Positions 1,806 to 13,459 of a stretch of DNA of 64,000 nucleotides are shown here, piece by piece. Both the position numbers and the translations under genes were made by a program. The stretch covers positions 1-64,000 of the forward strand of contig CACOVO010000001.1 in the NCBI GenBank assembly GCA_902630715.1, in the 5' to 3' direction. This DNA comes from an uncultured SAR86 cluster bacterium (GTDB lineage: Bacteria; Pseudomonadota; Gammaproteobacteria; Magnimaribacterales; Magnimaribacteraceae). The stretch's first letter is position 1, and each line of letters begins with the position of its first letter. Below the pieces are notes generated by a model. That model did not search any database and was not told the DNA's origin. It was given only the letters and a program-made list of their open reading frames with translations.

Positions 1806-3404
1806 TTATCTAGCTTGTGATTCTTCTATAAGCTTAACAAGGTTTTCGTGAATTATAGGCGCGGTATCTGGACCCAAAGATACTATCTCGCCATAAGTTT
1901 CTTCGTCCTCTCCATAGATCCAAGGGGCATCTTCATCCCATTCACTTTTTGGGATGATGTAACCAATAGAATCATTTGCCAAATTCACCATCAAATTTAG
2001 TTTGTCTGGAAATTGACTGCGCAAATGTGGAACTTCTTGCGGGGCTATCGTGTAATCGGCACCTAAAGGATTTTCTATGCCTCCAACAGCAATTTCTGGA
2101 TAAAGTTCTCCTGGAACACCTGTAATAGTCGCTTCTCCTAATTGTATGTATGCTACTTCACTTAAATAGCGAATAAATGGTGGCATCAGACTGAATTTAG
2201 TATCGGTATCAATCACGCCAAGTAAAGTGCCCAATGAGAGCATGAAATTTTCTATGCCTAATTCTATTTCTGCCGAGTGGACAGTTATGGATGGATTTGG
2301 TGACTGCTTAAAATCACCTATATTAAAAGCATCTATTACACTGTTCGCTAGACTATAGCCATATGCACGTGCTTTAGCATGACTTGGTTTAGTAAGCATT
2401 TTTTTCAAAACAGGATCATAAATTGGATCGGTCGGTCCTGATGTCATCAAACCTCCAATGTTTCCTGTAAGCCATAACGTGGTTCCACCAAGCCCAGCTC
2501 TTATGAGCTGATCATCATAATAAATGCCGTCACTGATGCCACTTCTTAAGTAGCCTGCAACATCAGAAGTTAATTCTAGATTTTTATCCCATGTAAGCTC
2601 GACATGAATTCCAAAGTTAATTAACGAGCCTATTATTGACCCATCGGGGCGATTAAACAAAATTACTCTTATGTCGTCATCTATAACGATGGGTTTTCGT
2701 TTATCTTTGATAGGCGTACGAGGATTGGTTGGAATTAAAGCTTGACTCATTTCTGCGGGCTCCAAATTATCTATAGCCATTTTTAATGTGCTTATGAAAT
2801 CTTTTTTAAGCTGCTCCATGTATGCATCATCAACACCGCTCTTTAAAAAACTTGGACCCCAAAGGCCTTGAGTATCTGGGCCCTCATGATTATGTGTTGC
2901 ATGCACCATGATGTAATCTAAACCCCACTCTGCAGGAACATCTTCGCGGACACTAAGTACAAATTTTCTCATCAAGCCAATAGTGTCAGCACTAATAATT
3001 GCTATCCGAGTCTGGCCGTCATCAATCACCGCAGTTACGGCCATGAGGTCATCTTTAACTCCTTGAGCAGCCCGTTTATTTTGAAAACCTGCCATCCAAA
3101 CAGCATCGAACTGGTTATTGCCGTTTAAATCAGTCCATTTATCGATATCTGGATCAAATTGAGCATCGTTATTTATATCCTCCCATTCATCAATAAGATC
3201 AGGGGTAATGGGAAGCTCAGCAAATCCAACTTTAAGTTCGTTTGCATAGATTTGAGAAGTCAAAAAAAGGGAAAACATCATGAGAATGTAAAGTCTGTTT
3301 TTTGTAAAACTAATTAGATTTAAACAGTATTTTAATTTCATTCTTTGTTTTGTATGTGTAGTGTGCCTGGCAGAATTGCTATAAGCATTATTAATGTAGC
3401 CCAA
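1806..3404 (-). CDS. neutral/alkaline non-lysosomal ceramidase-like secreted protein
   Basis: ELKVGFAELPITPDL...DLNGNNQFDAVWMAGFQNKRAAQGVKDDLMAVTAVIDDG...VHATHNHEGPDTQGLWG is typical of ceramidase-like N-terminal domains. The true start is probably the internal MKLKYCLNL, giving a signal peptide. Confidence 0.65.
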   Translation of the reverse strand: MGYINNAYSNSARHTTHTKQRMKLKYCLNLISFTKNRLYILMMFSLFLTSQIYANELKVGFAELPITPDLIDEWEDINNDAQFDPDIDKWTDLNGNNQFDAVWMAGFQNKRAAQGVKDDLMAVTAVIDDGQTRIAIISADTIGLMRKFVLSVREDVPAEWGLDYIMVHATHNHEGPDTQGLWGPSFLKSGVDDAYMEQLKKDFISTLKMAIDNLEPAEMSQALIPTNPRTPIKDKRKPIVIDDDIRVILFNRPDGSIIGSLINFGIHVELTWDKNLELTSDVAGYLRSGISDGIYYDDQLIRAGLGGTTLWLTGNIGGLMTSGPTDPIYDPVLKKMLTKPSHAKARAYGYSLANSVIDAFNIGDFKQSPNPSITVHSAEIELGIENFMLSLGTLLGVIDTDTKFSLMPPFIRYLSEVAYIQLGEATITGVPGELYPEIAVGGIENPLGADYTIAPQEVPHLRSQFPDKLNLMVNLANDSIGYIIPKSEWDEDAPWIYGEDEETYGEIVSLGPDTAPIIHENLVKLIEESQAR

Positions 3405-3532: not shown

Positions 3533-3554
3533 TTACTCCACGGTAACTGATTAG
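3533..3554 (-). repeat. glmS-tail core repeat 1: ttactccacggtaactgattag
   Basis: Minus strand TCA GTT ACC GTG GAG TAA = S V T V E stop, identical peptide to the GlmS C-terminus. Confidence 0.85.
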
Positions 3555-3574
3555 TTTTTTGTGTTACCCTTTTT
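3555..3574 (+). repeat. left terminal inverted repeat of module 1 (degenerate)
   Basis: ttttttgtgttacccttttt vs minus-strand TTTTGGGTGTAACTGTTATG (3718 down to 3699); 10 of the first 13 positions match. Confidence 0.5.
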
Positions 3575-3701
3575 TTACTTTTATTCCCTGTTTTTTGAAC
3601 ATTTCCATTAGATTTTTCTTGATTAAATCTCTGGAGTCTTCGGGTTTTACGACTACACCCTCTAATTTCTCTTCTTTTGTTTTTTCTTTTTTCTTTTTCA
3701 T
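3564..3701 (-). CDS. hypothetical lysine-rich 45-aa protein
   Basis: Manual translation MKKKKEKTKEEKLEGVVVKPEDSRDLIKKNLMEMFKKQGIKVKKG; fills the interval between core repeats 1 and 2. Confidence 0.45.
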   Translation of the reverse strand: MKKKKEKTKEEKLEGVVVKPEDSRDLIKKNLMEMFKKQGIKVKKG

Positions 3702-3718
3702 AACAGTTACACCCAAAA
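3699..3718 (-). repeat. right terminal inverted repeat of module 1 (degenerate)
   Basis: Abuts core repeat 2; pairs with 3555-3574. Confidence 0.5.
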
Positions 3719-3740
3719 TTATTCCACAGTAACGGAGCAA
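3719..3740 (-). repeat. glmS-tail core repeat 2: ttattccacagtaacggagcaa
   Basis: Minus strand TCC GTT ACT GTG GAA TAA = S V T V E stop. Confidence 0.85.
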
Positions 3741-3760
3741 GGTGAACGGGTCTTACATTC

Positions 3761-3934
3761 TCAACTATTTTTGTTCATAAATTTTTTCATTGAAAGAGAA
3801 ATTATTGCTATTAAAAAAAATACCGTGGCAACATCATGGAGACCGTTGATGCCAAATAAACTTTCAGATAAATACATCGCTATTGCAAGAATTATTAAAA
3901 CCCAGAATTCATATTTTTTTAAAAACTTAATCAT
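3761..3934 (-). CDS. small membrane protein (57 aa)
   Basis: Manual translation MIKFLKKYEFWVLIILAIAMYLSESLFGINGLHDVATVFFLIAIISLSMKKFMNKNS; fills the interval between core repeats 2 and 3; start 9 nt after the repeat-3 stop. Confidence 0.5.
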   Translation of the reverse strand: MIKFLKKYEFWVLIILAIAMYLSESLFGINGLHDVATVFFLIAIISLSMKKFMNKNS

Positions 3935-3943
3935 TTTTTGAAA

Positions 3944-3965
3944 CTACTCCACCGTAACGGTATTG
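3944..3965 (-). repeat. glmS-tail core repeat 3: ctactccaccgtaacggtattg
   Basis: Minus strand ACC GTT ACG GTG GAG TAG = T V T V E stop. Confidence 0.85.
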
Positions 3966-3985
3966 AATTGGAGTATGATTTGATT
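3966..3985 (+). repeat. left terminal inverted repeat of module 3
   Basis: aattggagtatgatttgatt vs minus-strand ATTTGAAGTGTGATTTAAAA (4439 down to 4420); 14 of 20 match. Confidence 0.6.
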
Positions 3986-3993
3986 CATGACGA

Positions 3994-4179
3994 TTAACTG
4001 TAAGAATTCCAATATATCTTAATCATTCTTTTTACTCCTGGTGTTTTAATTTCTTCAATATCCTTTAGGTTTTTGTAAATCAACGAGTATGTGTCTGGTG
4101 TGAGGTCATCAGGTCTGGTTCCCCCTTTCGTCTCTCTAAAAAACTGGGTTGTAAGTGACATTATTTCTTCTTTATCCAT
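3994..4179 (-). CDS. hypothetical protein (61 aa)
   Basis: Short ORF overlapping the end of the 81-aa ORF by 19 nt; same strand and module. Confidence 0.35.
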   Translation of the reverse strand: MDKEEIMSLTTQFFRETKGGTRPDDLTPDTYSLIYKNLKDIEEIKTPGVKRMIKIYWNSYS

Positions 4180-4406
4180 CCTTCTCTTTCATCGTGATTT
4201 AAATGTTGGTCAACTGATGAACCATTTCCAGTATATATATCTTCTAAAGAGGTATCCTTTTGTAAACATTTTCTATATCCAGAGTTTGGAGAATTTATCT
4301 CATTATAAGTTCTACCCCTTCCATCGTTATCAATCCAATTCCACCTATCAATGTGTAGTTTCTTCCTAACTCTTTCGGTGGTTTTATTTGTTCTAAAATA
4401 TTTCAT
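4161..4406 (-). CDS. hypothetical protein (81 aa)
   Basis: ATG start 33 nt after the repeat-4 stop; first ORF of module 3. Confidence 0.4.
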   Translation of the reverse strand: MKYFRTNKTTERVRKKLHIDRWNWIDNDGRGRTYNEINSPNSGYRKCLQKDTSLEDIYTGNGSSVDQHLNHDEREGWIKKK

Positions 4407-4419
4407 TACTTAAATTAAT

Positions 4420-4439
4420 TTTTAAATCACACTTCAAAT
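4420..4439 (-). repeat. right terminal inverted repeat of module 3
   Basis: Abuts core repeat 4; pairs with 3966-3985. Confidence 0.6.
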
Positions 4440-4461
4440 CTATTCAACGGTGACTGATTGG
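4440..4461 (-). repeat. glmS-tail core repeat 4: ctattcaacggtgactgattgg
   Basis: Minus strand TCA GTC ACC GTT GAA TAG = S V T V E stop; the 18 nt are identical to the present glmS 3' end. Confidence 0.9.
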
Positions 4462-4479
4462 ATTTGTGTGTTCCTATTT
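4462..4479 (+). repeat. left terminal inverted repeat of module 4
   Basis: atttgtgtgttcctattt, perfect 18-bp inverted match to 5868-5885 (aaataggaacacacaaat). Confidence 0.9.
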
Positions 4480-4490
4480 CTTTTTTTCAT

Positions 4491-5516
4491 TTACTTTTTT
4501 AAAGGTGTCATTACCCAATTTCCTTTAATGTCATAGAAATCAAATACACCTTCATATTTATCGTCTCCTAACCAAATACCGGTCCAGGTTCTATAACCGT
4601 CTCCAAAAATAATATTATTTCCTTCAAAAGACCAAGAATAATTCTTCAAATTTTTTCCTGAGGAATAAATTAAACCATTTCCTCTAAATTCAAATATGTC
4701 TGTTTTTCGTTCGGGGAGATTTTTATACCGTATTTCCCATGTTTTATTTGTGTTAATTCGGATGGTGTCCTGAAAATTAGTTCCAGTTCCAAATATCTCC
4801 CCTGTACTTCCTCCGTTCAATATACGTACTCTATAGAGAAGTTTTCCCTCATTATCTCTTACGTTCTCAAGATAATCCCCGAGACCACCTGTTCTCAGAT
4901 AAAAATATTCAAATTGTGGTTTCCCATTAATAATTCTTTTGTAACTGATCATGGTACCGTCTTTATATTCAGTTAAATCATAACTATTCTCAGTTATATT
5001 AGATCTAAGTGTTCCGTGTCTTTTTCCGTTTTTCCAATTTATTACCTTGTCCAATCTTCCATCTTCAGAATAAAAATTTTCCACACCTTCTTTCTTCCCA
5101 TTCTTAAAATAAACTTCAATAGATAATCTCCCATTAGGATTAAAAATTTTTTCATGAACACGTTCTCCTTTGTAATAGTCAGTAAAAGTAAATAGTTCTC
5201 CACTTGAATAATAATATCTAACAGGTCCGTGAATTACACCACCAACATACTCATAATGTGATTCCAAAGTTCCATCATATCTAAATTGTTTTGAGGGACC
5301 ATCTAATAGACCTCTGTAATAACTTTTCGAAAACTTTATATCTCGATTCGGTTCTTTTAGATAATAACCTATTACAACTCCTGTAATAGGTCTTCTGGTG
5401 TTTTGATCAAGTGTTATCCCTTCTTCAATCAATACGGGACCGGTTATAATTTTTCCCCTATCTTCACCACAGGAAAACAAAAATAAACAACAAAGAATTA
5501 AAAACAACTTATTCAT
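4491..5516 (-). CDS. MORN-repeat / YwqK-like lipoprotein
   Basis: MNKLFLILCCLFLFSCGED lipobox; repeats such as YYKGERVHEKIFNPNGRLSIEVYFKNGKKEGVENFYSEDGRLDKVINWKNGKRHG. Confidence 0.7.
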   Translation of the reverse strand: MNKLFLILCCLFLFSCGEDRGKIITGPVLIEEGITLDQNTRRPITGVVIGYYLKEPNRDIKFSKSYYRGLLDGPSKQFRYDGTLESHYEYVGGVIHGPVRYYYSSGELFTFTDYYKGERVHEKIFNPNGRLSIEVYFKNGKKEGVENFYSEDGRLDKVINWKNGKRHGTLRSNITENSYDLTEYKDGTMISYKRIINGKPQFEYFYLRTGGLGDYLENVRDNEGKLLYRVRILNGGSTGEIFGTGTNFQDTIRINTNKTWEIRYKNLPERKTDIFEFRGNGLIYSSGKNLKNYSWSFEGNNIIFGDGYRTWTGIWLGDDKYEGVFDFYDIKGNWVMTPLKK

Positions 5517-5554
5517 TAACGTTAAGTAAAATTTATATTTTTTTGAATAAAGTT

Positions 5555-5881
5555 CTAGTTTAATGAAAATTTAGATATCTGGGGTATGATTTTCTTCTTC
5601 CTCAATAAATTTATTCTTTCTTCTCGTTGTCTATGTCTCTTTAAGACTGAATAAACTGATGTGTTGAACCAAGTATTACCTCTTTCAGTTTTAATACCCC
5701 AAGAATTCAATTTATCCCTTATCTTTCTATATCCTAGACCCTTTTCCTCATGTAGATATTTGATTAAGTTGAGTACTACTTGTTGTCTTTTTGAATATAC
5801 AGACCTAAAAGTTAGGTCATTTGACTCTATCTCTATTTCGAATTCTAAATATGGGATTGTGTTCTCAAAATAGGAACACAC
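5555..5881 (-). CDS. small HTH protein resembling the serine-recombinase 'Recombinase' DNA-binding domain
   Basis: EKGLGYRKIRDKLNSWGIKTERGNTWFNTSVYSVLKRHRQREERIN; no catalytic resolvase domain; paralogous to ORF 6397-6666. GTG start 4 nt after the repeat-5 stop. Confidence 0.55.
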   Translation of the reverse strand: MCSYFENTIPYLEFEIEIESNDLTFRSVYSKRQQVVLNLIKYLHEEKGLGYRKIRDKLNSWGIKTERGNTWFNTSVYSVLKRHRQREERINLLRKKKIIPQISKFSLN

Positions 5882-5885
5882 AAAT
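5868..5885 (-). repeat. right terminal inverted repeat of module 4
   Basis: aaataggaacacacaaat; reverse complement ATTTGTGTGTTCCTATTT is identical to 4462-4479. Confidence 0.9.
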
Positions 5886-5907
5886 TTATTCCACCGTCAC
5901 TGTTTAA
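5886..5907 (-). repeat. glmS-tail core repeat 5: ttattccaccgtcactgtttaa
   Basis: Minus strand ACA GTG ACG GTG GAA TAA = T V T V E stop. Confidence 0.85.
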
Positions 5908-5922
5908 GTTTGAACAGAGAAT
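5908..5922 (+). repeat. left terminal inverted repeat of module 5
   Basis: gtttgaacagagaat, perfect inverted match to 6323-6337; with the adjoining taa the match is 18 bp. Confidence 0.9.
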
Positions 5923-5975
5923 AAGATTTTTAAACCTCTTATCAAACATTATATAAAATCTTCTATACTTTTCTT

Positions 5976-6335
5976 TCATGTTCTTTTTAGAAACTCTGAC
6001 ATAAAGTCTTCACAGATTTTCTTGACTGCTTTTGCGTCTTCGTCACCAAAAGTTTTGTTTGGTCTATTTTCATAATCATTACAGAACTTTTCACATGCAT
6101 TGCTGGAATAAAATGCAGTAACGCCAAGATGAAGCATGTGTATAATCTCGTTTGTAGGTTTAATATTTTGCTTGGACAAGACAGTGCTGCAAACAGTTTT
6201 TATTTCCTCTTCAGTTGCAACTCTATTATTTGTTGACTCCCACTTTCTCAGATGATTGCCTGCCTGGAAAACGAGAGCATACTGAAGAATATTATATGCT
6301 CCGAATAATTCCTGAATACTTAATTCTCTGTTCAA
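5976..6335 (-). CDS. hypothetical protein (119 aa, TTG start)
   Basis: Only ORF between core repeats 5 and 6; start 2 nt after the repeat-6 stop. Confidence 0.5.
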   Translation of the reverse strand: MNRELSIQELFGAYNILQYALVFQAGNHLRKWESTNNRVATEEEIKTVCSTVLSKQNIKPTNEIIHMLHLGVTAFYSSNACEKFCNDYENRPNKTFGDEDAKAVKKICEDFMSEFLKRT

Positions 6336-6337
6336 AC
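6323..6337 (-). repeat. right terminal inverted repeat of module 5
   Basis: attctctgttcaaac; reverse complement GTTTGAACAGAGAAT is identical to 5908-5922. Confidence 0.9.
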
Positions 6338-6359
6338 TTACTCCACCGTTACAGACTTT
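6338..6359 (-). repeat. glmS-tail core repeat 6: ttactccaccgttacagacttt
   Basis: Minus strand AAG TCT GTA ACG GTG GAG TAA = K S V T V E stop. Confidence 0.9.
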
Positions 6360-6362
6360 ATC

Positions 6363-6373
6363 CTACAGAGGGG
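6363..6373 (+). repeat. left terminal inverted repeat of module 6 (RM module)
   Basis: ctacagagggg; inverted match to cccctctgtag at 11610-11620. Both lie 3 nt from the core/stop codon. Confidence 0.8.
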
Positions 6374-6396
6374 ATTATCTGTGTTTTGATGTTGAG

Positions 6397-6666
6397 GTGA
6401 CTTCCAATCAACTTTGGCACACCCATTATTCTCCCTACCAATCATTTCTCCATAATAAGATAAAGCAACTCAAAGCAGAAGGTTTGGGTTATAGAAAAAT
6501 TGCCAAAAGACTTAACGAAGAAAATATAAAAACCTCTAGGGGCAATATCTTTTTCCCTTCTAGTGTCTATTCCATTTTAAAAAAGAAGAAAATTAGAGAT
6601 GAAAGATTGAATCAAGAATTTGAAAAAAAGATATCTGAGTTTTTGTTTGAGTATGTGATTGATTAG
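6397..6666 (+). CDS. small HTH protein resembling the serine-recombinase 'Recombinase' DNA-binding domain (89 aa, GTG start)
   Basis: AEGLGYRKIAKRLNEENIKTSRGNIFFPSSVYSILKKKKIRDERLN, similar to ORF 5555-5881; only plus-strand gene in the modular region. Confidence 0.55.
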   Translation: MTSNQLWHTHYSPYQSFLHNKIKQLKAEGLGYRKIAKRLNEENIKTSRGNIFFPSSVYSILKKKKIRDERLNQEFEKKISEFLFEYVID

Positions 6667-6669
6667 AAC

Positions 6670-9141
6670 CTAGTCCTCACCCCAAACTTTATTGATTCTG
6701 TCTTGAATTTTCTGAGAATAGATTTCGATGAGTTTTTTATTCCCTTCTATAACTTTTCTTTCTTCTTCTATTCTTGAAAGAACATCAACTAAATCATTTT
6801 TTGAAGGAAGTGGAATTTTGTATCTCTTAAGGTCATTGATTGATAAATTTGGTTGATTTAGTGCGGTAGCATTGGATTCAACATATGAATGAAAGTTATT
6901 TGATTGTAGAAGAACAAAAATATAATCTTTAATTGTCTGTGTATCACAACTTATTGATGCGACCCTTTGATTTAAAAGTGAATCATTAAATGACTTAGGA
7001 ACTAGTGCCACTTTTACTCCATCTGCAATAATTGTTCTTGTAAGTGCAACCACAATATCATTTTCTTTAACTAAAAATTTTGAATGCTTTTCTTTGAATT
7101 CACTTGGAAGGAAGTCTATCTCATTAACAAAATCTCCTAACCCGACATTAGTGATTTTTATAGATTTTATTCCCTGCTCTTGTTTAAAGTCTTTACTGCT
7201 AAATGAGTACCCACTTAGTATTGAAGAAACCTTTTCCAACTCAACCATCTCCCAACTTGGATCAATATCAATAGTTGGTTTGTAGTTCTCAACAACTTGT
7301 TTACACCCATCAATAATTTTTTGATACCCCTCTAACTCATCAACTATTTCTTGTTGAACTTCGAGAGGTGGGAGGGGGATTTCTAAGGATTTGATATTTT
7401 TAGTGTTAATGCTTGCTTGATTGACTGCTTTTTGAGCATATCTTTTTGCATCATTTATGAAATTATTTGATTTAAATATAAACAATGCATAAAGAGGTAA
7501 TATTTGATTTTGAATTGGTTTTAATTTAATTAAATTTGAACCATGAACAATTTTTTTATTTAAGTTGAAGATTGCTGTTTTTGCCAAGTGATCCATGCTA
7601 TTTATGTGACTAAATAAAATATCTCCTTTTTGTAAAAAATTTGATTCATCTACAGAATCATCTGTCCATTTTGTTGCTGAAGGGTTAAATGTCCCATCTG
7701 CTATTGAGGCAATTCGTGAAACTCTATACCTTCCCCCTTCATCTTGTTGTTTGACATTTTTTCCGTTTTTAATTTCACTAAATACTGATTCCAAACTCAC
7801 TAGGTCAAAGTTTGATTGACGGTCTATTTGTGTCTTATATCTTTCTAAAGAAAGAATGTAATCATTCTGAATAATATCTTCTTTATCTACATACATTAAA
7901 AGATCTGAGTCTTCATTATCTGACATTTTTATTTGATCAATTACTTGAGGAATATCATTTTCTTTAATTTGATTTCTTTGTGCACCCAAATCAAATCCAT
8001 CATTTTTAACCTCTGCAAAGAAAACTGAATCTCTTTCTTTGTTTAATTTCTTATCAAGAATAAGAATAGATGTCTTAACACCTGCATAAGGATTAAAAAC
8101 CCCGGCAGGTAAAGAAATCACTCCTATCAGTGCATTTTCAATAAGTTGTTTTCTTAACTCTTTATATGCTTTACCAGTTTGAAAAATAATTCCCTCAGGA
8201 ACAATAATTCCTGCACGACCATTGGGTTTGAGGTGTTCTAAGATATAACTGGTAAATAAAACTTCTGCTTTCTTTGATTCAACTCCAAATCTCTTATGAG
8301 GTTGAATTCCACCTTTAGGAGAGAAGAATGGTGGATTTGCAAGAATCACATCAAAGTATTCATTCCATTTATCCTCAGATGAAAGAGTATCGTATTCATC
8401 GATCTTTGGAGTGCTGAAACCATGCAAATACATATTTACTAATGAGAGTCGAATCATTTCGGGAGATATATCGTATCCGGTCACATTCTCACCTACTTTC
8501 TTTTTATCTTCTGCAGAAAGTTGGTCACCTAATTTTTTATCTGTGTTGGTCTTTAAAATATGTTTATAAGATGAAATTAAGAAACCTGCTGTGCCACACG
8601 CAGGATCAAGAATTGTTTCATTCTTTTGTGGGTCAATAATCTCAACAATAAAATCAATAATATGTCTTGGTGTTCTAAATTGCCCTGCATCACCTTGTGA
8701 ACCCATGATAGAAATTAGATATTCAAATGCATCCCCTAGTTTTTCTGAGTGCGAATAATTAAATTCATTTATCTCTTTTAAAAACATGTTCAGTGTTGAG
8801 GGATCCTTAAAAGGAAGAAACGCATTTTTAAAAATATCTCTAAATAAATGAGGTGCAGATGGGTTTAGATACATACTTTCTATTGCTTGACTGTATAGGT
8901 TTACCTTATCGACACCACTGAGTTTTGTATCTAATAGATTCTTCCATGCATACTTTTCATAATCTCCTACGAAGAAAGAACCCTTACCCCCCATTTCAAT
9001 AGATTCCTGATCCATGTCATCCATGAACTTATAAATTAGTCCTGTTGTGATTTGTTCTACTTGAGTTTGAGGGTTTGGAATCTTTCCAACAAGAATATCT
9101 CTCAAAGTATCTATTTTGCGTCTAGTATCAGAATCAAGCAC
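6670..9141 (-). CDS. type I restriction-modification HsdM-HsdS fusion (N6-adenine methylase + specificity domains)
   Basis: N6_Mtase motifs DPACGTAGFL and DVILANPPF, followed by two S-type target-recognition regions (FDLVSLESVFSEIKNGKN..., WEMVELEKVSSILSGYSF...) in one 823-aa ORF. Confidence 0.85.
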   Translation of the reverse strand: MLDSDTRRKIDTLRDILVGKIPNPQTQVEQITTGLIYKFMDDMDQESIEMGGKGSFFVGDYEKYAWKNLLDTKLSGVDKVNLYSQAIESMYLNPSAPHLFRDIFKNAFLPFKDPSTLNMFLKEINEFNYSHSEKLGDAFEYLISIMGSQGDAGQFRTPRHIIDFIVEIIDPQKNETILDPACGTAGFLISSYKHILKTNTDKKLGDQLSAEDKKKVGENVTGYDISPEMIRLSLVNMYLHGFSTPKIDEYDTLSSEDKWNEYFDVILANPPFFSPKGGIQPHKRFGVESKKAEVLFTSYILEHLKPNGRAGIIVPEGIIFQTGKAYKELRKQLIENALIGVISLPAGVFNPYAGVKTSILILDKKLNKERDSVFFAEVKNDGFDLGAQRNQIKENDIPQVIDQIKMSDNEDSDLLMYVDKEDIIQNDYILSLERYKTQIDRQSNFDLVSLESVFSEIKNGKNVKQQDEGGRYRVSRIASIADGTFNPSATKWTDDSVDESNFLQKGDILFSHINSMDHLAKTAIFNLNKKIVHGSNLIKLKPIQNQILPLYALFIFKSNNFINDAKRYAQKAVNQASINTKNIKSLEIPLPPLEVQQEIVDELEGYQKIIDGCKQVVENYKPTIDIDPSWEMVELEKVSSILSGYSFSSKDFKQEQGIKSIKITNVGLGDFVNEIDFLPSEFKEKHSKFLVKENDIVVALTRTIIADGVKVALVPKSFNDSLLNQRVASISCDTQTIKDYIFVLLQSNNFHSYVESNATALNQPNLSINDLKRYKIPLPSKNDLVDVLSRIEEERKVIEGNKKLIEIYSQKIQDRINKVWGED

Positions 9142-11593
9142 TAGATAACCTCTCTAAATCAACCTTTCCTTTAATAAACTGTGGGATCATTTCTTGTAAC
9201 TCTTCTGGTAAATTCTTAAATGCCTGTCCTGAGGGATGAACATTTAGTTCAACAAATCTCCCTTCATCAACTATTTCTCTATATTCAGGATCAGTTACAT
9301 AAGATTCAAAAACCTCTTTTGCATCTTGGAAATGATCATCAGATGGATTTAATTCCTCATCTAATTTTTCAAAATCTTCCTCTAAACATTCATTTTTAGA
9401 TTTAATTCGATCTATATGACCAAATGCATGCAATAACAATTCTGAGACACTGAGTTTTCTATCGAGTTCGAGAGATTTCCCTAGTTTCTGAAGAGTGAAA
9501 TATTCCTCAGGTTTGTCCAAGATATTTTCCTCTAAATAATTTTCCGCACTCTCAAATTCCATGTTTTCAACAAAATTACGAATAGTAGAGTTGTCTGTCA
9601 CCACTGATTGAAAAGATCGGTATAAATCACGATCTATTTTCATTCCTTCATCACTAACAGTTATTTCTTCTAAAAACTTTAAAGGATCTTCGTTGTAATT
9701 AGTTACTTCACCGACTGGATCAATATCAATAGGGTCGTCGATAGGGACGGAAGGTTTTTGAGGGAGTTTTAATATTTCATCGTAATCAAACTCCTTCTCA
9801 AAATATTCATAGTTTCCAAAGAAGTCGAAGAGATTGAATTTATCCTTAATTGAATCAACATGATAAGGTATTTCATTTTGTGAAATCCAATGGAACTTAA
9901 AATCATTCTTTCTAGTACCACGACCTTTCATCTGAATAAATTCACTGGGTGAATACACTGGTCGCATCAAACATAAATTTAATATGTCGGTGCAGTCATA
10001 CCCTGTGGTCATCATTCCTACAGTGACACACACTCTGGTTTTAGAAGTTCGATAATGTTCATTAACTTGAGACTGTCCATTCAAACCATTGTTTCTAAAA
10101 TCTATAGTCATCCTTTGGGATTCATCAATACTTGAGGTTACTTGAACGGCAAAGTCTGAACGATACTGATTAGGAAAAAGTTTATCTGCAAGGATATTTA
10201 ATATCTGAGTTACTTTTGAGGCATGATTTTGAGACACACAAAAAATTAGAGTTTTCCCAATTTCACCAGTGTAGGGGTCTCTTTTTGCTTCTTTGAGAAA
10301 GGTTTCACAAAAAATAGTGTTGGTAGTATCAGAGAAAAACCTCTTTTCGAAATCCTTCTTCAAAAAGGTTTCTTCAACATCATTACCCTCATCATCAACA
10401 CCTTCAAAAATATACCCCTCATCCGACAATAACTCGGTGGTGATTTCAGTCCTAGCATCAAAAACTTTTGGATTAACCAGGTATCCGTCTTTTACACCAT
10501 CTTCTAGTGAATACCTGAATGTGGGTTCTCCACTTTCACAACCAAAGGTGGTGTAAGTGTCCAGCAAAAATCTTTTTTCTAATCCCCTTGGATCTTTCTC
10601 ACCAAGTTTATCGACATCAACTGACCTCAAGAAATTTCTTGGTGTTGCGGTTAGTCCAAGTTTAAATCCATTAAAGTATTCAAAAACCCTTCTGCTTCTT
10701 GCACCTAGAGAACGATGTGCCTCGTCTGAGATCACTAAATCAAAATCATCATGATTAAAGATTTTCTTGTATTTGTTTTTACTTACAAACGATTGCACTG
10801 TGGAGACCACAATCTCTGCTTTTCTCCAATCACCCTGATTTTCTTTCCAAATTACAGTTCTAAAATCATTTTTTAATACTTCATCAAATTCCTTTTGTGC
10901 CTGAGTCTCAAGTTCAAGTCTGTCCACAAGAAACAAGACTCTATTAACTTTATAAAGTCTCAAGAACATTTTGATAATTGCACAAGAAACTAAAGTCTTG
11001 CCTGTGCCTGTTGCCATTTCTAGAAGAAATCTGTCTTTTCCATCTTGTACACTCTTCTGCACAGAATGAACTGCCCCCAACTGGTAATCTCTTAATACCC
11101 TTATTTTATTTCTTGTTAAAAAGTCACTCCTTTTTGATTCATCAAGGTAATTGGGGTCTTTTTCAAAATTTGGGTGCTGAGTTACCCCAATGTAGTTATT
11201 AGAAATTTTCTCATCTTCTTTAACAGGTGGATTAAATTTCTCTCTTCTTAGTTCAATTTGCTCTTGAGTGGGAAATTGGTCTATAACGAATGGACTGCCT
11301 TGCTCTAAATCCCATTGATAGTGCTGAATTCCATTAGAGAGAATCACAAATCTGCAACCTAGTGAGTCTGCGTAACTCCGTGCCTGTTCTTTACCATCTA
11401 GGGGGGACTTCAGTTCTCTTTTTGCTTCAATTATGCACAGGTATGATCCTTTAGAATCAAGCAAGGTGTAATCAGCAAACCCTGAATCATTTCGGGTTTC
11501 CGTTTCGACATTTACTTTTCCATCATCACCTGGCAAAACCCATCCGGATTCTCTTAAGAGTTTGTCGATTATGATTCTTGCACTTGCCTCCAT
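9134..11593 (-). CDS. hsdR: type I restriction enzyme R subunit
   Basis: LLEMATGTGKTLVSCAII Walker A, VISDEAHRS DEAD-like box, GLTATPRNF, IQMKGRGTRKN motif; overlaps the hsdMS start by 8 nt. Confidence 0.9.
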   Translation of the reverse strand: MEASARIIIDKLLRESGWVLPGDDGKVNVETETRNDSGFADYTLLDSKGSYLCIIEAKRELKSPLDGKEQARSYADSLGCRFVILSNGIQHYQWDLEQGSPFVIDQFPTQEQIELRREKFNPPVKEDEKISNNYIGVTQHPNFEKDPNYLDESKRSDFLTRNKIRVLRDYQLGAVHSVQKSVQDGKDRFLLEMATGTGKTLVSCAIIKMFLRLYKVNRVLFLVDRLELETQAQKEFDEVLKNDFRTVIWKENQGDWRKAEIVVSTVQSFVSKNKYKKIFNHDDFDLVISDEAHRSLGARSRRVFEYFNGFKLGLTATPRNFLRSVDVDKLGEKDPRGLEKRFLLDTYTTFGCESGEPTFRYSLEDGVKDGYLVNPKVFDARTEITTELLSDEGYIFEGVDDEGNDVEETFLKKDFEKRFFSDTTNTIFCETFLKEAKRDPYTGEIGKTLIFCVSQNHASKVTQILNILADKLFPNQYRSDFAVQVTSSIDESQRMTIDFRNNGLNGQSQVNEHYRTSKTRVCVTVGMMTTGYDCTDILNLCLMRPVYSPSEFIQMKGRGTRKNDFKFHWISQNEIPYHVDSIKDKFNLFDFFGNYEYFEKEFDYDEILKLPQKPSVPIDDPIDIDPVGEVTNYNEDPLKFLEEITVSDEGMKIDRDLYRSFQSVVTDNSTIRNFVENMEFESAENYLEENILDKPEEYFTLQKLGKSLELDRKLSVSELLLHAFGHIDRIKSKNECLEEDFEKLDEELNPSDDHFQDAKEVFESYVTDPEYREIVDEGRFVELNVHPSGQAFKNLPEELQEMIPQFIKGKVDLERLSSA

Positions 11594-11609
11594 GTTTACA
11601 AGTATAAAC

Positions 11610-11620
11610 CCCCTCTGTAG
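11610..11620 (-). repeat. right terminal inverted repeat of module 6
   Basis: cccctctgtag; pairs with 6363-6373. Confidence 0.8.
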
Positions 11621-11623
11621 AAC

Positions 11624-11645
11624 CTATTCAACGGTGACTGACTTG
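11624..11645 (-). other. extant glmS 3' end / putative attachment core: ctattcaacggtgactgacttg
   Basis: Encodes A K S V T V E stop of GlmS; parent copy of the six displaced repeats. Confidence 0.85.
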
Positions 11646-13459
11646 GCCAAGTTTCTTGGCTGATCAATATCTGTGCCTTTCAGAATAGCAACATGATAAG
11701 CGAGGAGCTGAAGAGGTATAGAATAAATAAGAGGTGCAATGAGTTCTGGTATTTCAGGAAGCTCAATAAATCTTGTAATAGATTCATCATCGTGATGAGC
11801 GTCAGAATGCCCAAAAACATAAAGTTTACCGCCTCTTGCTCTTACCTCTTCTAAGTTTGATTGTAGTTTCTCTAGAAGATCATCATTTGGAGCGACTGCA
11901 ACTACTGGCATTTCTGAATCAACCAGGGCTAAAGGTCCGTGTTTTAATTCGCCTGCAGGATAAGCTTCAGCATGTATGTAGGAGATCTCCTTTAGCTTCA
12001 AGGCACCTTCCATAGCGACAGGATAATGAATACCACGTCCTAAGAATAAAGCATGTTCTTTCTGATCAAAATCTTCAGCCATTTCTATTATTTGATCTTC
12101 TAAAGCCATGACGGAATCTAAAGAATCTGGAAGCGCTCTCAAAGAGTTGTTGATAGCATTTTCTGCAACAGACGAGAGGCCGTGATGTCTGCCGAGAATA
12201 AGAGTCAACATCAATAAACCTACAAGTTGTGTTGTGAAAGCTTTCGTTGAGGCAACGCCTATCTCAGGTCCTGCCTTGGTCAGAAAAACAAGATCAGATT
12301 CGCGCGCCAGAGAGCTTGAAGGAACATTACAGATTCCTAGACAAGCTAAATAATCTGAGTCCTTAGCCGAGCTAAGACAAGCTAAGGTATCAGCAGTTTC
12401 GCCAGACTGAGATATAGTAATAAAAAGCGTATTGGGGGCAACTACCTTGTTCCGGTAACGGAACTCACTTGCAACTTCTACACTGCATGGCAATCCGGCG
12501 AGTCCCTCTAACCAATATTTGGCTACCGTGCCAGCATGAAAACTTGTGCCACAGGCTACTATTTGAACTGATTCTACTTGCTTAAAGACCTCGGGGGCAC
12601 TCGGGCCAAAAATTTCTTCTTGAACTCCAGAATCAGTTAATTGGCCTTCTAAAAGTCCTTTAATTTTAGCGGGTTGCTCATTGATCTCTTTAAGCATGAA
12701 ATGTCTATAATCTCCCTTATCTACAGTTTCTCCTAAAGACTTCGCAACCACTACAGGCCTTTCAACTTCTTTATCCTCAAGGTTCCAATACTTTGTTTCA
12801 GTTGAGGTAATTTCTGCAAGATCTCCTTCTTCAAGAAATACAAAGTTTTCAGCAAAATCTGCAAGCGCTAGTTGATCCGAAGCGATGAAGTTCTCTCCAT
12901 GGCCCATGCCAATAACTAACGGGCTTCCTTTTCTTGCAGCTGATAAAATTCCTGGCTCACTCTCACAAACAGCGCCAATCGCATAGGCGCCCCTTAAGTC
13001 TTTTACGGCCAACTTTAGAGCATCTGTAAGAGACAGATTTTTCTCTGTCATTTTTGCATGAATTAAATGCGCAATGACTTCTGTATCGGTTTCTGATTCG
13101 AATTTATAACCCAGGGCCTTAAGTGTTGTTCTAATTTCTTGATGATTCTCAATTATGCCATTGTGGATTACATATACTTGGTTGTTTGAGTGATGAGGAT
13201 GTGCATTTGCCTCTGTTGGTAGGCCATGAGTTGCCCATCTGGTATGGGCAATTCCCGTATTTCCATTGACGGGATTTTTATCAATTGAATTTTGTAGCTC
13301 TGCTACCTTGCCCGTACTCTTGAATACTTGAACTTTTTCTGTTTCATCAAAAATAGCAAGTCCTGCTGAATCATAGCCTCTATACTCTTGGCGCAAGAGA
13401 CCTATCAGCAATTTATCTACTGAAGGCTTACTGGAAGCAACCCCGATAATTCCACACAT
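11624..13459 (-). CDS. glmS: glutamine-fructose-6-phosphate aminotransferase (isomerizing)
   Basis: MCGIIGVASSKPSVDKLLIGLLRQEYRGYDSAG ... DQPRNLAKSVTVE. Confidence 0.98.
   Translation of the reverse strand: MCGIIGVASSKPSVDKLLIGLLRQEYRGYDSAGLAIFDETEKVQVFKSTGKVAELQNSIDKNPVNGNTGIAHTRWATHGLPTEANAHPHHSNNQVYVIHNGIIENHQEIRTTLKALGYKFESETDTEVIAHLIHAKMTEKNLSLTDALKLAVKDLRGAYAIGAVCESEPGILSAARKGSPLVIGMGHGENFIASDQLALADFAENFVFLEEGDLAEITSTETKYWNLEDKEVERPVVVAKSLGETVDKGDYRHFMLKEINEQPAKIKGLLEGQLTDSGVQEEIFGPSAPEVFKQVESVQIVACGTSFHAGTVAKYWLEGLAGLPCSVEVASEFRYRNKVVAPNTLFITISQSGETADTLACLSSAKDSDYLACLGICNVPSSSLARESDLVFLTKAGPEIGVASTKAFTTQLVGLLMLTLILGRHHGLSSVAENAINNSLRALPDSLDSVMALEDQIIEMAEDFDQKEHALFLGRGIHYPVAMEGALKLKEISYIHAEAYPAGELKHGPLALVDSEMPVVAVAPNDDLLEKLQSNLEEVRARGGKLYVFGHSDAHHDDESITRFIELPEIPELIAPLIYSIPLQLLAYHVAILKGTDIDQPRNLAKSVTVE

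Follow-up and report, generated by a model that had tools for sequence, protein, structure and literature searches.

The glmS locus and its array

The window, that is, the whole stretch of 64,000 nucleotides from an uncultured SAR86 cluster bacterium that was analysed, contains between positions 3533 and 11645 seven copies of a short sequence encoding the end of GlmS (VTVE-stop), the first copy belonging to glmS itself. These seven cores delimit modules 1-6, listed here from glmS outward, with the best arm match out of 16 nt.

11624..13459, minus strand: glmS (ORF call; its C-terminus has matches in 154 of 203 genomes across the order)
11624..11645, minus strand: core 1 (22 bp), inside glmS; the resident core, last codons VTVE-stop, presumed attB
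6360..11623, unstranded: cassette module 6, 5.3 kb; arms 11608-11623 and 6360-6375, 14/16
9134..11593, minus strand: HsdR-like type I restriction subunit, module 6 cargo (PF04851, E 7.8e-38; PF13588; PADLOC REase_I)
6670..9141, minus strand: fused type I methyltransferase-specificity protein, module 6 cargo (PF02384, E 6e-62; PF01420, E 5e-26; PADLOC)
6397..6666, plus strand: small protein resembling the 'Recombinase' domain of integrases, in module 6 at its distal end (PF07508, E 7.8e-7; phrog_95 integrase)
6338..6359, minus strand: core 2
5908..6337, unstranded: cassette module 5; arms 6322-6337 and 5908-5923, 15/16
5976-6335, minus strand: 119-aa ORF in module 5
5886..5907, minus strand: core 3
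4462..5885, unstranded: cassette module 4; arms 5870-5885 and 4462-4477, 16/16
5555..5881, minus strand: small 'Recombinase'-domain-like protein, glmS-proximal end of module 4 (PF07508, E 4e-4, narrowly missing the cut-off)
4491..5516, minus strand: MORN-repeat-like protein, module 4 cargo (PF07661, E 6e-6, below the cut-off)
4440..4461, minus strand: core 4
3966..4439, unstranded: cassette module 3, small ORFs; arms 4424-4439 and 3966-3981, 13/16
3944..3965, minus strand: core 5
3741..3943, unstranded: interval module 2, 57-aa ORF, without matching arms, 6/16
3719..3740, minus strand: core 6
3555..3718, unstranded: cassette module 1, ~50-aa ORF; arms 3703-3718 and 3555-3570, 11/16
3533..3554, minus strand: core 7, the last recognisable core

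Outside the array, a 532-aa ORF lies immediately past core 7 (1806-3404, minus strand), and an adhesin-like repetitive coding sequence at 1-1200 runs off the left end of the window.

Four of the six modules have strong inverted arms, one has weak arms and one has none. Random pairs taken from the window reach 14-16 matches in 0 of 20,000 draws, 13 in 1 of 10,000 and 11 in ~1%; the inverted arms described in the initial annotation of this DNA are confirmed at the positions it gave, those of module 1 at p ~0.01, and module 2, for which it had seen no convincing arms, indeed has none (p = 0.94). By eye, the distal end of module 2 resembles the right ends of other cassettes, and the interval may be a fusion of two cassettes after loss of an internal core. 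The reading frame of the small 'Recombinase'-domain-like protein of module 4 extends through the arm of that module.

Homologous modules elsewhere also carry arms, a check that the same annotation had proposed: a homologue of module 6 in L099 has the same cargo layout and arms matching at 12/16, while in L106 the arms of a relative of module 4 match at 16/16 and differ from those of module 4 at matching positions of both ends, that is, they have co-varied. The arm pattern of module 5 was found only in glmS arrays when nine whole genomes were searched.

Arms and cores across the SAR86 order

DNA downstream of glmS was collected from relatives of the same family and then from the order (203 species). 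At least one cassette is present at 65 of the 78 glmS ends that could be read, and these 78 loci hold 170 cassettes in total, with a median of 539 bp; this count is a lower bound, since several glmS ends run into a contig edge. At a fixed offset, the two arms of a cassette match at 10.0/16 on average, versus 6.2/16 for mispaired left and right arms (z = 23.6), and at other offsets the match is at background level. Where the arms are symmetric, defined as at least 12 of 16 positions matching, they are separated by exactly 22 bp in 89 of 91 cassettes. The other 79 of the 170 intervals lack symmetric arms, some of them probably because internal cores were missed. The dyad symmetry spans 12 to ~28 bp from the centre, with the best match at ~16-24, and a half-site AnTC...GAnT is conserved.

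Two statements of the initial annotation have to be revised in the light of this survey. The decay of the arms with distance from glmS, visible in the six intervals of the window, disappears over the 170 cassettes of the 78 loci (Spearman rho of arm quality versus rank from glmS = -0.08, p = 0.33). The core described as constant is so in its length of 22 bp but not in its sequence: the seven cores of the window all encode [S/T]VTVE-stop and differ at third codon positions, a restriction to wobble positions that is partly imposed by the detection pattern, which tolerated third-position changes.

In a class-wide survey of the core, most matching genomes hold a single copy, the glmS tail expected in any Gammaproteobacterium. 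Two-core matches in G224, G349 and G206 were rejected as arrays, being duplicate glmS ends; among the two-core genomes checked, only G550, a member of another gammaproteobacterial family with small genomes, has a second VTVE-stop downstream of glmS (G550:C15, L150:431-1430), located 980 bp after the gene, with a 309-aa ORF between the two and without clear arms.

Position of the crossover

The same cassette is found in differing contexts, which permits an analysis of linkage between core positions and neighbours. Position N5 of the core is linked to the left neighbour only (0.76 versus 0.28 expected, p = 0.0005); N8 shows the reverse, being linked only to the right neighbour (0.60 versus 0.30 expected, p = 0.0005). 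Core positions through N5 follow the left neighbour and those from N8 onward the right one; between them, A6 and C7 are almost invariant, and the centre of the arm dyad falls exactly between these two bases. The cores beside a given cassette are mosaics whose halves match the two neighbours and not copies of the resident tail. As the core halves travel with their respective neighbours, the crossover therefore lies inside the AC dinucleotide at the dyad centre; the overlap may be slightly wider than 2 bp, since the linkage of N8 to the right neighbour is imperfect.

In serine integrase systems the overlap is 2 bp long and sits at the centre of the dyad, and its non-palindromic dinucleotide fixes a single orientation. 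A crossover within the 2 bp of AC in this position, read indirectly from sequence linkage, has the form expected of a large serine integrase and points to a serine recombinase; likewise, the attP dyad of ~50 bp has its outer motif near 16-24. In the structure of the LI integrase bound to attP, the recombinase domain lies on positions 1-12, and positions 16-24 are read by the zinc domain (PMC3783163); mapped onto this complex, the common core occupies the recombinase-domain region and the cassette-specific arms the zinc-domain region. Fixed spacing and dyad geometry also support the proposal of the initial annotation that arm, 22 bp and inverted arm form an attP-like site that circularisation would regenerate.

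Cargo, orientation and mobility

Most cassettes consist of one gene, and the longest ORF has the same orientation as glmS in 141 of 159 cassettes, starting at a median of 33 nt past the core. Scanning of 94 cargo proteins identified restriction-modification systems of types I, II and III, HNH and other nucleases, MORN repeats and assorted enzymes, together with many proteins without a known family; defence genes are thus carried by several cassettes, among them the type I restriction system of module 6. A leader of ~190 nt, located immediately within the arm on the glmS side, is conserved among cassettes that differ in both genes and arms (L027, L038, L101, L108, L111, L112, L126 and L158); it had no Rfam match in the scans of L027, L038, L126 and L134. 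Separately, a SAM-I/IV riboswitch (80 bits) is located at L038:6454-6550 (plus strand), within a 3.4-kb cassette and just before a 64-aa ORF.

Cassettes are shared between families: copies 95-100% identical occur in different families beside different neighbours, and the GlmS C-terminus of family f1 is only ~65-69% identical to that of f2 and f3 at the protein level. When arrays are compared, 29 polymorphic insertions stand against 10 shared junctions at glmS, and 1 against 4 at internal cores, in agreement with the earlier proposal that insertion occurs mainly at the glmS-proximal core. The comparison of the two counts is not entirely even, as glmS was always accepted as shared left context, which favours that site. 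The extra cassettes are mostly found between glmS and a shared first cassette, and the junctions of the glmS polymorphisms are exact.

The integrase-bearing element and its probable partners

Serine recombinases are rare in the order, PF00239 being present in 5 of 203 genomes. That of G159 sits in the first cassette after glmS, at locus L134, and is the sole intact large serine recombinase (LSR) inside a glmS array among the 203 genomes. The L134 element is 6,030 bp long, directly follows glmS and has arms matching at 15/16; it encodes a large serine integrase of 551 aa (L134:6088-7740, minus strand; PF00239, PF07508), which matches phrog_95, a Rep-like protein (PF23343) and a copy of a small HTH protein. 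In another species (G153), cassette 2 of L158 (1,312 bp) has no LSR and bears the L134 arms at both ends, reproducing even the one-base difference between the left and right arms of L134; cassette 2 of L126 (1.7 kb, G154) is near-identical. From their sequences, the L134 element and the L158 and L126 cassettes display the pattern of an autonomous element with non-autonomous partners. The view of the initial annotation that different arms imply different cognate recombinases is therefore plausible, since the L134 integrase shares its arms with integrase-less cassettes; however, among the 203 genomes no integrase was found for any other arm type, and the match between LSR and arms comes from one arm type.

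An integrase is encoded in the L134 element only and not in the window. The genome to which the window belongs (64% complete) gave no match to PF00239, and the cassettes of the window are at most non-autonomous; the single-contig genome G030 also has an array and no PF00239 match. The LSRs of G154 and G163 were discarded as array integrases, as they are not beside glmS cores, and a broken large serine recombinase in G004 (L041:1500-2130, near a contig end) is unlinked to any glmS core. Protein and pattern scans of viral contigs gave no matches, and phage records contained only distant LSRs, below 60% identity. A PF00589 search for a tyrosine recombinase as cassette mover revealed no extra copies near glmS; sporadic long tyrosine recombinases (~450-490 aa) were seen in other islands of some relatives (L076, L078, L079, L080 and others).

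In the window, modules 4 and 6 each encode a protein similar to the first half of an integrase's recombinase domain. The small HTH family A1, which includes the module 4 protein, is present in 22 of 203 genomes; 19 of the 22 genes lie within 12 kb downstream of glmS, 12 of them directly after it. A profile built without the L134 copy detects the small HTH protein of L134 (E = 5e-7), matches neither the L134 integrase itself nor any solved structure, and the predicted structure of the protein has a mean pLDDT of 54, too low for a structural comparison. Its distribution, together with the L134 copy, ties the family to the glmS cassette system; very tentatively, it could be a directionality or site-binding factor.

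Proposed mechanism and alternatives

Taken together, the sequence evidence makes it likely that the 3' end of glmS acts as attB for a family of integrative elements whose integration relies on large serine recombinases, with cassettes that are probably moved in trans. From the same evidence we infer catalysis, circular forms and the role of the small HTH protein in the cassette system. The circular cassette would bear an attP of ~56 bp, formed by an arm, the 22-bp core and the inverted arm. The core, ~11 bp per side, would be the region common to attP and attB and would be bound by the recombinase domain of the integrase, while the arms, which lie 12 to 28 bp away from the centre, would correspond to the linker and the zinc-ribbon motif and would determine by which integrase a given cassette is recognised. 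Exchange of the sites would take place at the central AC; glmS would retain its own 5' core half and gain the 3' half of the cassette, so that VTVE-stop is restored, and each insertion would push the previous junction outward. Because AC is non-palindromic, all cassettes would enter in one orientation, and because of this the cargo gene would come to lie just downstream of glmS, where it may be read from the glmS operon. The recombinase-less majority of cassettes would probably depend, for mobilisation in trans, on rare elements that carry an integrase.

An integron-like or Xer-type tyrosine recombinase, with the core as overlap region, would agree with the layout of tandem, mostly single-gene cassettes in one orientation, and XerC/XerD-like recombinases are found in most genomes. 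However, tyrosine recombinases have overlaps of 6-8 bp, whereas the crossover is limited here to ~2 bp at the dyad centre; furthermore, beyond two tyrosine recombinases none is conserved, additional copies being sporadic and in other islands, and the sole recombinase inside an array is an LSR. Such a mover is therefore unlikely. The array could also be an old relic, shuffled by homologous recombination alone and with no active integrase system, as suggested by the lack of symmetric arms in about half of the intervals and by the near absence of LSRs; this explanation is quite unlikely, being at odds with the nearly identical cassettes in different families and beside different neighbours, with the exact junctions of the glmS polymorphisms and with a recombinase-bearing element that shares the cassette format.

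Tn7 inserts using the glmS end, and the arms resemble terminal inverted repeats, so that Tn7-like or other transposons targeting glmS, with the core as target-site duplication, would offer a further explanation. The cores are mosaics of their neighbours, not copies of the resident tail, which makes it very improbable; a TniQ search matched 0 of 203 genomes, with positive-control genomes equally silent.

Starting from the large serine recombinase model, a wider reading, towards which the balance tips slightly, would see in the array a serine-recombinase counterpart of the integron: an exchange network spanning the SAR86 order, whose non-autonomous cassettes, mostly with one gene each and with arms specific to an integrase, would all share the tail of the essential glmS gene as their dock. 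In this network the cargo, much of it for defence against phages, would be transcribed from the glmS operon, and the cassettes would be mobilised in trans by rare, small elements that replicate and encode both the integrase and a dedicated small HTH protein.

Significance and comparison with known systems

SAR86 bacteria are among the most abundant in the surface ocean and have small, streamlined genomes; to our knowledge, little mobile DNA has been described in them. A common dock with exchangeable cassettes, several of them defence-bearing, would explain part of the fast-changing gene content of SAR86. The cassettes also represent a large natural set of matched attP arms on one shared core, useful for studying site choice by serine integrases, and the integrase, its partners and glmS are a source of direct, testable predictions. 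No published description of the system was found in the open-access collection searched, which lacks preprints and the majority of subscription articles.

Among SCC elements, both tandem copies and forms lacking a recombinase are known. SCC, including SCCmec, and the Enterococcus cassette chromosome (ECC, with CcrAB) resemble the proposed SAR86 system in using LSRs to integrate at the 3' terminus of a conserved gene, in having inverted repeats within the att site of the circular form and in carrying variable cargo (PMC6222049). Differently from them, the SAR86 cassettes target glmS instead of rlmH, in a different phylum, have a median of only 539 bp, mostly with one gene oriented with the host gene, and have arms that differ per cassette, while the integrase is nearly always missing from the array. 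The only array LSR is a single gene of 551 aa, apparently distinct from ccrAB.

Like integrons, the arrays consist of short, mostly single-gene cassettes with one insertion end and a common orientation; unlike them, they have a site in the form of a long dyad, whose core is fixed at 22 bp around a central dinucleotide, the end of a host gene serves as dock, and instead of IntI only two conserved XerC/D-like genes and sporadic tyrosine recombinases elsewhere in the family are found. The attP geometry and central dinucleotide are shared with the elements of phage-type large serine integrases, such as A118/LI, phiC31 and Bxb1 (PMC3783163), which differ from the SAR86 system in that here many small integrase-less cassettes use one attB, with tandem arrays order-wide at most of the glmS ends examined. 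For a Tn7-like element the core would be a target-site duplication, but the cores are mosaic. Thus no single known family fully accommodates the system: its mechanism is nearest to SCC/ECC and phage serine integrases and its layout to integrons, and it is best read as an order-wide set of SCC-like yet integron-sized cassettes.
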